Assembly: GCF_001697185.1 (NCBI RefSeq)
Contig: NZ_CP014224.1
Coordinates: 1,240,001 to 1,304,000, forward strand
DNA: 64,000 nucleotides
Source: Wenyingzhuangia fucanilytica
GTDB lineage: Bacteria; Bacteroidota; Bacteroidia; Flavobacteriales; Flavobacteriaceae
Direction: 5' to 3'
The first letter of the stretch is position 1. Each line of letters opens with the position of its first letter. Below, in pieces: positions 4,324 through 49,248 of this stretch. The translations under genes and the position numbers were made by a program. The notes under the pieces were generated by a model, which was not told the DNA's origin, searched no databases, and saw only the letters and a program-made list of their open reading frames with translations.

Positions 4324-6099
4324 TTAAAGAGTTTGTAGCTTTAATTGTAGATCGATTACTTTTTGATATTTATCTGATAAACTATCTAAAGCTTGTTTGT
4401 TTTGCTCTACAAGTTCATTAAAGTTGTTTTGAAATAATTGTTGGTAGTATGAAATACCAGACAATAAATTACTTGTAAACCTTGTTAAGGTTTTGTTTTG
4501 CTTAGGGTTAAATTGCTCATTTATTTGATTAGATAAATAAGTAACATACATATCTAATTCTTTAATAAACATGTTAGGTCTATCATTTCTTTTGATGATG
4601 TTTATTTTACCATATATATGGTCTATCATGTTAGATAGGCTAACTTTTTCGCTAAAATAAGCTAGGTTAGGACCAGGGCATACAGAAACACCTTTACCTT
4701 CGGTTTTGGTTTCTATACCGTAATTTAATAGGGCAGTTGTCCCTAAACCTACACAGATACATGACTTTTCGGTTACCTTATCAATTTCTTTTTGCTGTTC
4801 AATAAGGCTCAACTCATTATTTTCTTGAAGCTGTTTTATTTTTAAATATTGATATTCCCTAGAAGCAATACATTGTCCTTCTGCTTTAAATTCTTGATTT
4901 AAGGCAACATGTCTTTTAGGACAAGCACTACCAGGTCTGTTTTTAGTAATATTTAATTCTTTTTGTTCGTCTTTAGTATTTCCTTTTAAATTGTTAAAAG
5001 GAACTCCTAAGGGAGAAATATTACTTAAATACAAATCTTTTTCTTTGGCATGCGCTAGTTTGTCAAGGGTTTCAACATCTACAGTAGTAGCTTCTGGAAC
5101 CAATAAAAAAGGGGAGCCCCATCCAATAGAATCTAAATCGTAGTTTTTTAATAAAAATTTGTGTTCTTCTGCCGTACCCACACCACCTTGAGCAGATATT
5201 TTTAAATCGGGCATATTTGCAGAAATCTCTTTGTTTTTTTGTGCTAAAGCTTTAGTAAACAAATCATAAGTAATATTGTATAATTCTTTTCTGTTGGTTT
5301 TAAACTCTTCTAGAACAGGGCCTAATAAGTATCCATCGGTTGCAAAAGCATGTCCACCGCAATTTAATCCAGATTCAATTCTATACTCAGTTACCCATAA
5401 ACCTTTTTTGGCTAAATATTTTCCTTGGATTAGTGCAGAGCGATAATCACTAACTTTTAAAATTATTTTCTTTTTAATGTATCCATTTTCATCAGGATAA
5501 AAATCTTCAAAGTTTTCTAGGTAATTATAAAGTCTTGGGTTCATACCAGCAGAAAAAACAATTGAAGAGTCTAAATTAGATTTTGCATAACCTCTTAAAG
5601 CTGCATGAGCATCATTATATTCAACAGGCAAAGCTTCGTGGTCTACATAGTTTGTTTTATCAATTTTGGTCATAATATTTACATCTATACGACCTGGTTT
5701 TAAGTTGTGTTTTATTAATAATTTGATTTCTGTTAAATCATCACTTTGTATTAAGCGTTGTTTTAATTCAGAACCAGAAGGTAGATGTTTGATGAAATCA
5801 ACAAAAATAGCGTCCTTAATACTTGATATATTTTTAAGCTTTTTAATTTTGGTTTGAATTAAATCATTCATCATATTAAGATAAGATGTAATTCTTAACG
5901 CTCTGTAATCAATAGTTTTATCGCTGATTTCTATGTATTTAAGCTGATTTAATTCAGAATAATATTTACGCAGTTTTTCAAGTAAAATATCATCAACTAA
6001 AGAAATTACAGAGTTAATTCCATAAGCTGCAACTTTTAGCGGACTGTCTGCCGTAAAACCAATTCCCATTACAGGAATATGAAAGGTGTGTTTTTCCAT
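4324..6099 (-). CDS. uncharacterised protein, distant nitronate-monooxygenase-like TIM barrel
   Basis: This protein of about 591 residues has no firm family name that I recognise. Some segments resemble nitronate monooxygenase/2-nitropropane dioxygenase flavoproteins. An ESGLNCGGHAF stretch near residue 250 resembles the EAGGHxG loop. AQGGVG followed by DSIGWGSPFLLVPEAT near residues 303-337 resembles the GGI...GTRF phosphate-binding end of that barrel. The C-terminal third adds a Cys-containing region (SCICVG, SVCPGP) with no match I know. A longer reading from 6126 is open, but its first codons overlap the predicted -7 box at 6124-6131, so the Met at 6099 is the better start. It precedes hemN by 13 bp and has an FNR-like site upstream, suggesting low-oxygen expression. 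FMN binding is inference. Confidence 0.7.
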   Translation of the reverse strand: MEKHTFHIPVMGIGFTADSPLKVAAYGINSVISLVDDILLEKLRKYYSELNQLKYIEISDKTIDYRALRITSYLNMMNDLIQTKIKKLKNISSIKDAIFVDFIKHLPSGSELKQRLIQSDDLTEIKLLIKHNLKPGRIDVNIMTKIDKTNYVDHEALPVEYNDAHAALRGYAKSNLDSSIVFSAGMNPRLYNYLENFEDFYPDENGYIKKKIILKVSDYRSALIQGKYLAKKGLWVTEYRIESGLNCGGHAFATDGYLLGPVLEEFKTNRKELYNITYDLFTKALAQKNKEISANMPDLKISAQGGVGTAEEHKFLLKNYDLDSIGWGSPFLLVPEATTVDVETLDKLAHAKEKDLYLSNISPLGVPFNNLKGNTKDEQKELNITKNRPGSACPKRHVALNQEFKAEGQCIASREYQYLKIKQLQENNELSLIEQQKEIDKVTEKSCICVGLGTTALLNYGIETKTEGKGVSVCPGPNLAYFSEKVSLSNMIDHIYGKINIIKRNDRPNMFIKELDMYVTYLSNQINEQFNPKQNKTLTRFTSNLLSGISYYQQLFQNNFNELVEQNKQALDSLSDKYQKVIDLQLKLQTL

Positions 6100-9890: not shown

Positions 9891-11126
9891 TTGAATTTCG
9901 AATTATTTATAGCTAATAGACTTACAAAGTCTCAGGAATATAAAAATAGTGTTTCATCCCCAATCATAAAAATAGCAATAATAGCTATAGCATTGGGTAT
10001 GATGATGATGTTAATTTCTATTGCTACAGGAGTTGGGTTACAGAGAAGAATTAGAGATAAAGTAGCAGGGTTTAACGGTCATATTGTAATTAGTAACTAC
10101 GATAACAATCAATCTAAAACCACACAGAAACCTATAGATATTCATCAAAAGTTTTATCCAAAGTTTACTACCGTTTCTGGAATTAATCACGTTCAAGTTT
10201 TTGCAACAAGAGCCGGAATTATTAGAACAGAAAAATCTTTTGAAGGCGTTGTTTTAAAAGGAGTTGATAAAGATTATGATTGGTCTTTTTTTAAAGAATA
10301 TTTAGTAGCAGGAAAAGTACCTGTTTTTGGTGATAAGATTTCTAAAGAAGTAATAGTTTCTAAATTGATAGCCGATAGAATGCACTTTAAAGTAGGGGAT
10401 TCTTTTGATACTTTTTTTATTAAAGAAGATCCTAATACTTTACCAAGCCGAAGAGTTTATAAAATTTCAGGAATTTATGATACCGGTTTTGAGGAGTTTG
10501 ATAAAAACATCATGATTGGAGATATCAATCAAGTTAGGGGATTAAATAAATGGAAAAATGATCAAGTAGGTGGTTTTGAGGTTTTTGTAAACGATTTTAA
10601 TGAAATTGATAAAAAATCAAAAGAAATTTATCAAGAGATTGATGTTACTTTAGATAGCCAAAGTTTATTTGAACAGTATCCACAAATTTTTGAATGGTTA
10701 CAGTTGTTTGATGGCAACATTGCGGTCATCATTATTATTATGATTATTGTAGCTGGGATTAATATGATTACAGCTTTGTTGGTATTAATTTTAGAGAGAA
10801 CCCAAATTATAGGTGTTTTAAAAACCTTAGGAGCTAAGAGTTGGTCTATTCGTAAAATATTTTTATACAATGCTTCGTATATTATTGGTAGAGGCTTGTT
10901 AATAGGAAATGTTGTGGGCTTATTATTTATTTACTTACAATATCAGTTTAAGTTTATCACTTTAGATCCTCAGAACTATTATGTACATGTAGCACCGGTG
11001 TATATTACATTCTCACAAATTATTTTACTAAACATTGGAACACTGGTTTTATGTGTTTTAATGATGTTGATTCCTTCTTATATTATTACAAGAATTAGTC
11101 CGGCACAATCTGTAAAATTCTCATAA
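9891..11126 (+). CDS. ABC transporter permease, LolC/FtsX (MacB) type
   Basis: This 411-residue permease has one N-terminal helix (residues 25-48), a large periplasmic domain, and three C-terminal helices (about 278-300, 322-345, 372-398), the FtsX/MacB topology. The N-terminal region (MNFELFIANRL, SPIIKIAI) resembles flavobacterial LolC/E-like permeases that move lipoproteins out of the inner membrane; that substrate is inferred. The start is a TTG, supported by the conserved N-terminus and the promoter at 9857-9864. No ATPase gene is adjacent, so the partner is encoded elsewhere. It ends in the first hairpin of the repeat array. Confidence 0.88.
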   Translation: MNFELFIANRLTKSQEYKNSVSSPIIKIAIIAIALGMMMMLISIATGVGLQRRIRDKVAGFNGHIVISNYDNNQSKTTQKPIDIHQKFYPKFTTVSGINHVQVFATRAGIIRTEKSFEGVVLKGVDKDYDWSFFKEYLVAGKVPVFGDKISKEVIVSKLIADRMHFKVGDSFDTFFIKEDPNTLPSRRVYKISGIYDTGFEEFDKNIMIGDINQVRGLNKWKNDQVGGFEVFVNDFNEIDKKSKEIYQEIDVTLDSQSLFEQYPQIFEWLQLFDGNIAVIIIIMIIVAGINMITALLVLILERTQIIGVLKTLGAKSWSIRKIFLYNASYIIGRGLLIGNVVGLLFIYLQYQFKFITLDPQNYYVHVAPVYITFSQIILLNIGTLVLCVLMMLIPSYIITRISPAQSVKFS

Positions 11127-11202
11127 AAAAACCTCCATTGGGGATGGAGGTTTTTTCAAACTAAACTATCTAAACTATGAAAAACTATTTTGTTTTTATA
11201 CT
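11124..11202 (-). ncRNA. putative small RNA, array copy 1
   Basis: Transcription starting about 12 nt after the copy 1 promoter would give an RNA of about 79 nt: a U- and A-rich 5' part with TAGTTT repeats, then a terminator hairpin with loop UCCCCAA and a U tract. The start is estimated from promoter geometry. Confidence 0.5.
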
Positions 11203-11213
11203 TAATAGATATT

Positions 11214-11227
11214 CAAGTACTATGCCA
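11214..11227 (-). promoter_or_regulatory. sigma-54-like promoter, array copy 1
   Basis: The minus strand reads TGGCATAGTACTTG. GG and the G of TTG are 10 nt apart, as in the sigma-54 consensus TGGCAC-N5-TTGC; the final C is replaced by A. Confidence 0.5.
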
Positions 11228-11279
11228 AGAATTACTTTTGGGATAAAATAAACCAATATTTTATTTGACTAAAATTCAT

Positions 11280-11359
11280 AAAAAAACCTCCATTGGGGCT
11301 GGAGGTTTTTTTAACTAACTAAACTATTTAAACTATGAAAAACTATTTTGTTTTATACT
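11280..11359 (-). ncRNA. putative small RNA, array copy 2
   Basis: The organisation matches copy 1, with loop GCCCCAA in the terminator hairpin. A one-base deletion relative to copy 1 in the T run of the plus strand breaks any shared reading frame, which argues for RNA rather than peptide function. Confidence 0.5.
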
Positions 11360-11370
11360 TAATAGATATT

Positions 11371-11384
11371 CAAGTACTATGCCA
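11371..11384 (-). promoter_or_regulatory. sigma-54-like promoter, array copy 2
   Basis: The sequence is identical to the copy 1 element, TGGCATAGTACTTG on the minus strand. Confidence 0.5.
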
Positions 11385-11436
11385 AGAATTACTTTTGGGA
11401 TAAAATAAACCAATATTTTATCTGACTAAAATTCAT

Positions 11437-11522
11437 AAAAAAACCTCCATTGGGGGTGGAGGTTTTTTCAAACTAACTAAAACTATTTAAACTATGAAAA
11501 AACTAATGTTGTTTTAACATAA
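11437..11522 (-). ncRNA. putative small RNA, array copy 3
   Basis: The 5' part is diverged from copies 1 and 2. The TAGTTT-rich tract and the terminator hairpin are retained, with loop CCCCCAA, the most C-rich of the four. Confidence 0.5.
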
Positions 11523-11533
11523 ACTGTAAACAA

Positions 11534-11547
11534 CAATTACTGTGCCA
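11534..11547 (-). promoter_or_regulatory. sigma-54-like promoter, array copy 3
   Basis: The minus strand reads TGGCACAGTAATTG preceded by six T. The -24 half TGGCAC matches the sigma-54 consensus exactly; the base after TTG is T instead of C. Confidence 0.5.
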
Positions 11548-11601
11548 AAAAATCAAAACAAGAATTTTTTTAATGAAAATTGATGTAAATTTTTAGGGCA
11601 T

Positions 11602-11684
11602 AAAAAAAACTCCATTGGGGATGGAGGTTTTTTTTAAACTAACTAAACTATCTAAACTATGAAAAACTATTTTGTTTTCTATAA
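11602..11684 (-). ncRNA. putative small RNA, array copy 4
   Basis: This is the first unit met by transcription from lipA. The hairpin loop is UCCCCAA, and one stem base pair is lost compared with the other copies (CTCCA/TGGAG), so termination may be slightly weaker. Confidence 0.5.
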
Positions 11685-11695
11685 TTATAGTTAAA

Positions 11696-11709
11696 CAAGT
11701 ATCGTGCCA
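11696..11709 (-). promoter_or_regulatory. sigma-54-like promoter, array copy 4
   Basis: The minus strand reads TGGCACGATACTTG after six T, the best match of the four (TGGCACG-N4-TTG). It begins five bases past the lipA stop codon, so the array may be fed both by read-through from lipA and by this promoter. Confidence 0.5.
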
Positions 11710-11714
11710 AAAAA

Positions 11715-12638
11715 TTAATTTACGTGTTTTTTTGCGTGATAAGAAGATCTTACCAAGGCAGAACTTTCTACGTGTTTAAAACCTAAAGATTTTGCGTAGA
11801 CTTCATATTCTTTAAAAAGTTCTGGTGTAATATATTCTTTAACAGGTAAATGTTTTTTACTTGGTTGTAAATATTGTCCTAAAGTCACAACATCTACGTT
11901 AGCATTTGCTAAATCTCTAAGACTTTCAAAAACTTCTTCTTTCTTTTCTCCTAAACCTAGCATAATACCAGATTTGGTTCTGCGCTGTCCTTGTGCTTTA
12001 ATATATCTTAATACTTCTAAACTTCTGTCGTATTGTGCTTGTATACGCACTTCACGAGTTAACCTACGAACTGTTTCTAGGTTATGAGAAATTACTTCAG
12101 GAGCAGCAGTAATTAATCTGTCAATATTTTTAGTGTCTCCTTGGAAATCTGGAATTAAAGTTTCCATGGTAGTGTTAGGGTTTGCTCTACGGATTGCAGC
12201 TATTGTTTCTGCCCAAATAATAGAACCACCATCTTTTAAATCATCTCTATCTACAGAGGTAATAACGGCATGTTCAATACTCATAATTTTTATAGAACGA
12301 GCAACTTTTTCTGGTTCATCCCATTCAACCGTTTCTGGTTTTCCCGTTTTTACACCACAAAAACCACAAGATCTTGTACAAATATTTCCTAAAATCATAA
12401 AGGTAGCAGTTCCATCACCCCAACATTCACCCATGTTAGGACAACTACCACTAGTACAAATAGTGTTTAGTTTGTATTTATCTACCAATCCACGTAATTC
12501 AGTGTATTTTTTTCCAACAGGTAATTTAACTCTTAGCCAATCTGGTTTTTTATTTCCAACAGGAATAGTTCCTGGATTTGTTGTGTTATTTGCTTTGTTT
12601 GGTAATACAGATTTAAATGTAGTTGATTCCGTACTCAT
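11715..12638 (-). CDS. lipA: lipoyl synthase
   Basis: This radical SAM enzyme inserts two sulfurs into octanoyl groups on the 2-oxoacid dehydrogenase and glycine-cleavage carrier proteins. The protein has 307 residues. The auxiliary cluster cysteines are Cys61, Cys66 and Cys72 (CTSGSCPNMGEC), and the radical SAM cluster is Cys87, Cys91 and Cys94 (CTRSCGFC). The C-terminal RSSYHA motif supplying the auxiliary-cluster serine is present. It is a single gene, and the four-copy repeat array begins directly after its stop codon. Confidence 0.97.
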   Translation of the reverse strand: MSTESTTFKSVLPNKANNTTNPGTIPVGNKKPDWLRVKLPVGKKYTELRGLVDKYKLNTICTSGSCPNMGECWGDGTATFMILGNICTRSCGFCGVKTGKPETVEWDEPEKVARSIKIMSIEHAVITSVDRDDLKDGGSIIWAETIAAIRRANPNTTMETLIPDFQGDTKNIDRLITAAPEVISHNLETVRRLTREVRIQAQYDRSLEVLRYIKAQGQRRTKSGIMLGLGEKKEEVFESLRDLANANVDVVTLGQYLQPSKKHLPVKEYITPELFKEYEVYAKSLGFKHVESSALVRSSYHAKKHVN

Positions 12639-48672: not shown

Positions 48673-49248
48673 ATGAAGATTTATACAAAAACAGGTGATG
48701 CTGGAGAAACCTCATTATTTGGAGGAAAAAGAGTTCCAAAATCGCATATTAGAATTGATGCTTACGGTACTGTAGATGAATTAAATTCTTATATAGGATT
48801 GCTAAGAGATTTAGAAATAGATAATCATCATAAAACGTTTTTAATCAACATTCAAGAAGAATTATTCGTTATCGGAGCTTTTTTAGCTACTCCAGAGGAG
48901 AGTGAAACTTTAAAAAACGGTAAAAGTAGGTTAAGATTAGATGTATTTGGAGAAAAAGAAGTGGCTGTGTTAGAAAAGGAAATTGATGCGCTTGATGGTC
49001 AACTAGAACCTATGACACATTTTATTTTACCAGGAGGAAATGTAGTGGTGTCACATTGTCACATTGCTAGAACAATTTGTCGTAGGGCAGAGAGAATCTG
49101 TGTTTTGTTGCAGTCAGAAGAAACTGTCAATGTTGGTATTCTAAAATATTTAAATAGACTATCAGACTATTTATTTGTGTTGGCACGAATGTTGTCTAAA
49201 CAGTTACAGGTGGTTGAAACCAAGTGGATTCCATCAAAAAATAAATAA
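48673..49248 (+). CDS. ATP:cob(I)alamin adenosyltransferase, PduO/MMAB type
   Basis: This 191-residue five-helix bundle makes adenosylcobalamin. The N-terminal TKTGDAGETSLFGGKRVPKS is the ATP-binding signature, and CRRAERICVLL carries the conserved Arg/Glu pair. An adenosylcobalamin-dependent enzyme such as methylmalonyl-CoA mutase is expected elsewhere in the genome. Confidence 0.94.
   Translation: MKIYTKTGDAGETSLFGGKRVPKSHIRIDAYGTVDELNSYIGLLRDLEIDNHHKTFLINIQEELFVIGAFLATPEESETLKNGKSRLRLDVFGEKEVAVLEKEIDALDGQLEPMTHFILPGGNVVVSHCHIARTICRRAERICVLLQSEETVNVGILKYLNRLSDYLFVLARMLSKQLQVVETKWIPSKNK

Follow-up and report, generated by a model that had tools for sequence, protein, structure and literature searches.

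Candidate sigma-54-driven small RNAs in tandem behind lipA of Wenyingzhuangia fucanilytica, with predicted pairing to SusC start regions

Background

The FopS family of Bacteroides (RF04319) comprises 14 paralogous small RNAs (sRNAs) which, as described (PMC11697453), pair close to the SusC start codon and so block translation; its members are about 65–70 nt long, one of them derives from a 3′ untranslated region (UTR), the promoter is the canonical sigma-ABfr one, and the family works with the RRM protein RbpB. In Vibrio, Qrr1-5 are largely redundant sRNAs, each under its own sigma-54 promoter (PMC8043402), and in Flavobacterium psychrophilum the sRNA Rfp36 stands under the sigma-54 motif SM4 (−24/−12) and belongs to a regulon that also includes genes for chaperones, envelope stress, and gliding (PMC9723704). 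Here, we analyzed a stretch of 64,000 nucleotides from Wenyingzhuangia fucanilytica (contig NZ_CP014224.1, positions 1,240,001 to 1,304,000 of the forward strand), called the window below, in which four direct repeats behind the lipoyl synthase gene lipA form a predicted tandem sRNA array. Judged from these repeats and their relatives, we think it fairly probable that they encode four redundant, copy-amplified, sigma-54-driven sRNAs that pair with the starts of SusC messenger RNAs (mRNAs) and block their translation.

Flavobacteria, which break down a large share of algal-bloom polysaccharide, take up glycans mainly through SusC porins. With Qrr, the array shares the promoter logic only, that is, several redundant sRNAs with separate sigma-54-type promoters; the Qrr genes, as described, are dispersed and target quorum-sensing regulators rather than porins, and no Rfam match that would point to Qrr homology reached its gathering score in the window. 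The likeness to Rfp36, compared by description only, is that of a flavobacterial sRNA with a −24/−12 promoter. What appears to be new is a flavobacterial family of tandem sRNAs that is linked to lipA, has sigma-54-type promoters, and probably targets SusC starts. Among the top matches listed by searches of open-licence literature, we found no paper that appears to describe this lipA-linked family and, as a described Bacteroidota sRNA system with repression of SusC at its start codon, only FopS.

Results

A tandem array of four predicted sRNAs

The array occupies positions 11123-11710 on the minus strand of the window and consists of four direct repeats spaced by 162, 163, and 157 bp, in each of which a TTGGCAY-N5-TTG element is followed by a predicted RNA of about 80 nt and then by a terminator hairpin with a T-run (Table 1). 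An earlier note on this DNA had described four direct repeats of 157–163 bp between a convergent permease gene and lipA, with TGGCAY-N5-TTG, about 75–85 nt, and a T-run terminator on the minus strand of each, and the repeat positions, open reading frames (ORFs), motif search, and folding bear this out. The 5′ ends that it gave agree with the starts computed here by sigma-54 spacing (11684, 11522, 11359, and 11202), and its view of the locus as a multicopy sRNA locus under sigma-54-type promoters is supported by the comparative evidence below, namely the array across the genus, the matches of a promoter-free model, and the presence of RpoN and activators. In the Rfam covariance scan that it had proposed, no family reached its gathering score within the window, the matches below threshold being at chance level only.

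Folding z-scores were −4.2, −3.9, and −4.1 for units r1, r2, and r3 and −2.7 for r4, the stem of which has one mismatched pair. Folding predicts an open, U-rich middle that is followed by the terminator and, in most units, preceded by a weak 5′ hairpin; this hairpin, GAAAAC..GTTTTTC in the window units, exists in a far stronger version in other genera and is an addition to the earlier note, as are the likely target and the family outside this genome. A small peptide encoded on the plus strand was considered as well, and as the r1 and r2 frames from ATGAAAAAC (read by eye) differ between units, none is proposed.

RNA cores and SusC start regions

By computed duplex energy, the middle of these RNAs is complementary to SusC start-codon regions beyond chance. 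Twenty genes of the W. fucanilytica genome pass the SusC cut-off, 19 of whose start regions were used (L186 was dropped, having no ATG by the start rule), and the comparison set was 549 genes from 40 stretches covering 800 kb of the 3.43 Mb genome. Duplex energy with the RNA core averaged −17.5 for the 19 SusC starts versus −11.2 for the 549 genes, with an area under the curve (AUC) of 0.886. In a subsample of 200 genes, the core gave an AUC of 0.899, shuffled cores (100) reached 0.73 at most, and both the reversed core and the reverse-complement core gave 0.40; a core without its anti-AUG stretch retained an AUC of 0.875, and none of 100 shuffles was as good. Ten of the 19 SusC starts lie within the top 23 of all 568 start regions, and in the SusC gene L201, the start of which was misplaced by the rule used, a likelier start fits the seed at 15/16 positions. 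The word ACTAACTAAACT is not enriched in the W. fucanilytica genome, the reversed control pattern being commoner (33 vs 79), and the target claim therefore rests on the start-region energies and not on that word.

RNA core and SusC leaders diverge in step between the genus of the window and other genera. This comparison used 104 of the 118 SusC start regions over the cut-off in eight genomes; the 14 regions left out had no ATG by the rule (L186; eight stretches; L285, L290, and L312) or belonged to two fragmentary genes of genome G153. Each of the three genus cores binds SusC starts of its own genus more strongly than those of the five other genera, and for the other five cores the preference is reversed (8/8), with p < 0.05 for seven of the eight cores, p values that are generous since the genes are related and not independent. 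The best cognate duplexes in the five other genera range from −26.3 to −36.9 kcal/mol, and for each of them none of 100 shuffles reached the value.

The array across the genus

Ninety-nine relatives were searched for the array, the genus being represented by the W. fucanilytica genome (G000) and six others so labelled (G001 to G006). The array was found behind lipA in 7/7 genus genomes examined, with lipA upstream in every case (by ORFs; for G003 and G001 by sequence) and the permease gene downstream wherever the contig allows (L086, L087, and L092). The W. fucanilytica genome, G003, and G006 have four units each, G001 has five, and G005 has one, while the array of G002 shows three units and a run of Ns and that of G004, with at least four units, reaches the contig end. 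The TGGCA-containing promoter element, on whose presence in related repeats the earlier note had staked its proposal, precedes 24/24 complete aligned units of the seven genomes; these units were located by the promoter motif, and the regular spacing and the printed arrays show no unit that lacks it.

Units of one genome are on average 87% alike (34 pairs) versus 64% between genomes (242 pairs), which argues for concerted evolution of the units; orthologous units at the first position are 60% alike (21 pairs). In G006, two compensatory changes separate the terminator stem of unit 4 from those of units 1-3, and stem changes of the same kind are present in G001 unit 5 and G002 unit 3. Outside the genus, the same search gave weak matches in 34 genomes (E from 1e-6 to 1e-3), and those that were viewed were mostly opposite-strand start regions, terminators, or chance.

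Relatives in other genera

A clear relative lies downstream of lipA in 11 of 80 lipA loci from named genomes (the 80 best among at least 589 relatives), with Lutibacter, Tenacibaculum, and Polaribacter among the 11 and with one relative (L038) about 1 kb from lipA; most of these 11 trained the model R1 described below, so that their scores are given by construction. L064 (29 bits) and L077 (motif and hairpin only) are weaker candidates, and the Flavobacterium lipA loci among the 80 gave no R1 match above 25 bits. Motif and hairpin together were present in 14/80 loci, from which the matches upstream of the lipA end (L040, L051, L061, and one of two in L072) were then removed. Of 45 motif matches, eight turned out to be coding sequence or unrelated and were left out (one each in L015, L034, L040, L041, L051, L067, L074, and L080); from the remaining matches and r4, 31 units were aligned. 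Because this alignment with terminators, the stems of which are of unequal length, gave no consensus structure, the covariance model R1 was built without them, from the 5′ hairpin and core of 16 sequences and with no promoter.

R1 was run on 249 genomes of Flavobacteriaceae, with 22 candidates scored per genome and the counts therefore being lower bounds, and at least 48 of the 249 had a match at E ≤ 0.001. All 65 matches were inspected: 18 are RNA genes, 43 are antisense to SusC-like starts as judged by N-terminal sequence, and four are neither, these being the start of another exported protein (L170), the same leader interrupted by a contig end (L173 and L458), and a match with no long frame (L420). 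On the mRNA strand the antisense matches read GACUAAUUCAAAUAAUU(A)UAAAAUGAAAACAAAGUUU, and those of G031, G165, and G204 (two) sit at genes scored as SusC/RagA (TIGR04056); the RNA model therefore also describes the antisense of the SusC leader, start codon, and first codons. One of 20 weaker matches (L435) is possibly a diverged RNA gene.

The 18 RNA genes comprise three in the W. fucanilytica genome, five in G001, and ten in seven genomes of six other genera (two each in G266, G031, and G177 and one each in G153, G282, G165, and G204). All seven genomes outside the genus have a unit behind lipA, six with lipA no more than about 0.5 kb upstream; in G204, lipA lies directly upstream of the unit, by sequence, and the second G177 unit is on another contig and was not placed relative to lipA. 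Each of the ten units has the GG-N10-G spacing, with TGGCAY in six and TGGTAY in four.

Promoter element and sigma-54

Sigma-54 promoters carry GG and GC ten bases apart (−24/−12), with the consensus TGGCAY-N5-TTGC. The GG-N10-G spacing is present in all units seen, and the earlier observation that the four window units keep it, with T or A as the base after TTG, holds. The exact motif TTGGCAYNNNNNTTG (TTGGCAY-N5-TTG) occurs five times in the 64-kb window against 0.33 expected, with at least five in none of 100 shuffles; four of the five are the array units, and the fifth (49180-49194, plus strand, within a coding frame) is probably a chance match. Complete GG-N10-GC is found in six of nine model-found units from six genomes outside the genus (G204 left out), and the W. 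fucanilytica genome has one strong PF04552 match (RpoN) and three strong PF00158 matches (enhancer-binding activators).

A direct repeat, TTAAC-N6-TTAAC, begins 31–33 nt before TGGCA in 6/38 promoters (L023, with two, L034, L038, L053, and L260 of G282) and in three more loosely, and is seen by eye in L463 and L464 as well. It is absent from the genus of the window and looks like a fixed activator site.

In F. psychrophilum, genes for chaperones, envelope stress, and gliding stand under −24/−12 (sigma-54-motif) promoters, as does one sRNA, and the genome encodes three activators (PMC9723704). This analogy suggests envelope or folding stress as the inducing signal.

A second locus and other seed-bearing elements

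A second predicted sRNA locus of the W. fucanilytica genome (G000:C1:3173136-3173183, minus strand; L251 10136-10183) carries the same seed, TAGTTTTTCATAGTTTTAGTTTA, with a sigma-54-type promoter and a terminator. Counterparts (L381-L385) in G001 (two tandem units), G002, G004, G005, and G006 bring the locus to 6/7 genomes, and G003 gave none by the search pattern used. The locus of W. fucanilytica lies upstream of a rhodanese-type gene, so named from sequence only.

Seed-bearing elements of other kinds were also seen. In L089 (G021) and L088 (G049), a seed TTTTTCATAGTT.. is followed by a terminator with no TGGCAY-N5-TTG before it, and the L089 element stands directly 3′ of a coding frame, as expected of a 3′-UTR-derived sRNA. 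In L264 (G059) and L265 (G284), a UvrA-like frame is followed by a sigma-54-type promoter, UUUUCAU, and a hairpin; a second TTGGCAC-N5-TTG a short distance further on possibly marks another tandem sRNA pair. At G000:C1:3310939-3310950 (L117), ACTAACTAAACTATAAAAC, which is complementary to the sRNA core, lies just 5′ of a terminator and resembles a sponge site. The Rfam scan of 12 relatives' loci gave a single match, a Flavo-1 RNA (RF01705) above gathering score in L080 (5112-5262, minus strand), near a Polaribacter lipA locus and elsewhere in that stretch.

Table 1 Positions of the array units and bordering genes in the window
Feature	Position	Strand	Basis and remarks
lipA (lipoyl synthase)	11715..12638	-	named from sequence; upstream neighbor, stop 4 nt before the first promoter
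Unit r4 promoter, sigma-54-type, TTGGCACGATACTTG	11696..11710	-	motif search; same element in relatives
Unit r4 predicted RNA	11602..11684	-	first unit after lipA; start placed by sigma-54 spacing; core (seed) 11636-11669; terminator 11602-11635, one mismatched pair
Unit r3 promoter, sigma-54-type, TTGGCACAGTAATTG	11534..11548	-	motif search
Unit r3 predicted RNA	11437..11522	-	core ~11469-11505; terminator 11437-11468
Unit r2 promoter, sigma-54-type, TTGGCATAGTACTTG	11371..11385	-	motif search
Unit r2 predicted RNA	11280..11359	-	core ~11312-11345; terminator 11280-11313
Unit r1 promoter, sigma-54-type, TTGGCATAGTACTTG	11214..11228	-	motif search
Unit r1 predicted RNA	11125..11202	-	core ~11157-11187; terminator 11125-11156
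ABC-type permease	9891..11126	+	named from sequence; convergent, downstream border of the array

Discussion

In the mechanism that we propose, the array would be four separately transcribed, trans-acting sRNAs of a flavobacterial family placed behind lipA in several genera, each RNA having about 80 nt with a 5′ hairpin, a U-rich single-stranded core of about 30 nt, and an intrinsic terminator. Sigma-54 RNA polymerase and an enhancer-binding activator, one of the three, would turn the units on together, as the promoter sequence and the encoded RpoN and activators suggest. The core would then pair in the cell, as the computed complementarity suggests, over the leader and start codon of mRNAs for SusC/RagA-type TonB-dependent porins, and such pairing would block translation initiation; the repressive sign is taken from the analogy with FopS of Bacteroides, which blocks SusC translation near the start codon. 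Tandem copies, presumably kept alike by concerted evolution, would raise the RNA dose, and in other genera the 5′ hairpin, which copies the start sequence of the target (GAAAACAAAGU), may keep part of the seed covered as long as no better partner takes its place. The outcome of a sigma-54 response would be the shutdown of the main outer-membrane nutrient porins.

Several observations weigh against this account. G002, G005, and G006 have lost the seed UUUUCAU from their lipA arrays, although the second loci of these three genomes retain it. The top four of the 568 start regions belong to non-SusC genes, and the best duplex of all (−26.6 kcal/mol) is with a trkA-like potassium-uptake gene (L250, ORF at 4603, minus strand), where these energies disregard accessibility and the start rule misplaced at least one SusC gene (L201). 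In the cross-genus comparison, the G204 core gave p = 0.14, the best duplexes of the genus were no stronger than −23.7, −24.4, and −25.5 kcal/mol, one of 100 shuffles reached the best value of G003 and one of 100 the mean of G006, and among the five other genera the cognate core was not always the best, the G153 core scoring −38.1 on a G031 start for which G031's own core scored −26.3. The training sequences of R1 were picked by promoter and lipA linkage, so that related matches are not fully independent. Moreover, 38 genomes, chosen for an R1 match not assigned to an RNA gene, have a match of the SusC-leader type, and a laxer search of them, in which all matches above 37.7 bits were inspected, found no RNA gene above 44.2 bits. 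The leader is thus conserved in many genomes with no detected lipA-linked RNA, so leader conservation alone is no proof of pairing; in such genomes, other RNAs may serve (cf. G059, G284, L088, and L089), or the leader may have another role.

Unlikely, but the strongest of the alternatives, is that the same sRNAs act as a broad anti-start-codon regulator of AUGAAAA-type starts with A/C-rich leaders in genes for many exported proteins and lipoproteins, SusC being just the most visible class. Consistent with this, 18 of the 20 weaker R1 matches are antisense to ORF starts and just six of these are SusC-like, the high-ranking non-SusC regions include a sulfatase and lipoprotein-like frames besides the trkA-like gene, and, among background genes, a crude signal-peptide pattern goes with slightly better scores (p = 0.064). 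The last effect is small, however, SusC genes stand apart from other genes in duplex energy (AUC 0.886), and 43/47 of the strong R1 matches that are antisense or other are SusC-like.

We consider it improbable that the RNAs are real and the promoter is not sigma-54, with TGGCAY-N5-TTG belonging to some other promoter or to an activator site, for instance in combination with TTAAC-N6-TTAAC. The GG-N10-G spacing of all units, the full GG-N10-GC of most model-found units outside the genus, the RpoN and activators of the W. fucanilytica genome, and the known F. psychrophilum sRNA under a −24/−12 promoter (PMC9723704) all speak for sigma-54. Counting for a different factor, and against our account, are the absence of the final C of the −12 element from all four window units and the search upstream of the promoters, which found no activator site common to the genus and no classical distal site; a fixed upstream repeat would also suit a different activator.

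A still smaller chance is given to the RNA gene being an inverted copy of a susC leader that mostly reflects this origin, the leaders being kept for translation and the RNA being a weak or vestigial regulator. That the RNA of other genera holds both the start antisense (ACTTTGTTTTCAT) and a sense copy (GAAACAAAGT), and that leaders are conserved where no RNA was detected, would fit such an origin; core and SusC leaders nevertheless differ together between the genus of the window and the others, and the amplified gene, with its promoter and a terminator maintained by compensatory changes, is not what decay would be expected to leave. Finally, an array of bidirectional terminators that insulates the convergent lipA and permease genes and has no RNA function would explain hairpins U-tailed on both strands between convergent genes, but we regard it as scarcely credible given that the conservation of promoter and core is as strong as that of the hairpins, that the genome has another, separate locus with this seed, and that target complementarity exceeds that of shuffles.

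For the preferred account, in which the sRNAs repress SusC translation, a fuller version can be put forward tentatively, its odds being less than even. Here, sigma-54 would be an envelope-stress sigma factor of flavobacteria, with tandem, dose-scaled sRNAs and the second locus as a repression arm that silences SusC, a start-mimicking hairpin that holds back the seed in some genera, and co-divergence of RNA and leader. If the preferred account is true, an RNA whose gene has a constant place in the genome, behind lipA, would connect the sigma-54 regulon with polysaccharide uptake, and thanks to this position it could be located and deleted in several cultured genera. The RNA-leader pairs over several genera make RNA-target co-evolution directly testable.

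In enterobacteria, the stress sigma factor sigma-E stops the synthesis of abundant outer-membrane proteins through the Hfq-dependent sRNAs RybB, MicA, and MicL. The system proposed here would be a convergent counterpart of sigma-E/RybB/MicA with another sigma factor and another porin class; sigma-E, the targets, and Hfq dependence set the enterobacterial sRNAs apart, and no sequence relation is claimed. Closest is FopS, from which the window array differs, as FopS is described, by its tandem arrangement behind lipA and its sigma-54-type promoter in place of sigma-ABfr; no TAnnTTTG box of sigma-ABfr was noticed by eye at the array. The FopS covariance model (RF04319) scored 25 bits against the array (gathering score 56, E = 0.21), while several chance matches of no relation scored higher. 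A search for an RRM partner (PF00076) gave no match in the W. fucanilytica genome and was positive in a Bacteroides control genome. The two share paralogous short sRNAs in a Bacteroidota genome and pairing near the SusC start codon, which here is in silico. While it departs from FopS in covariance score, promoter type, and RRM partner, the array would, as far as its sequence tells, work like FopS.

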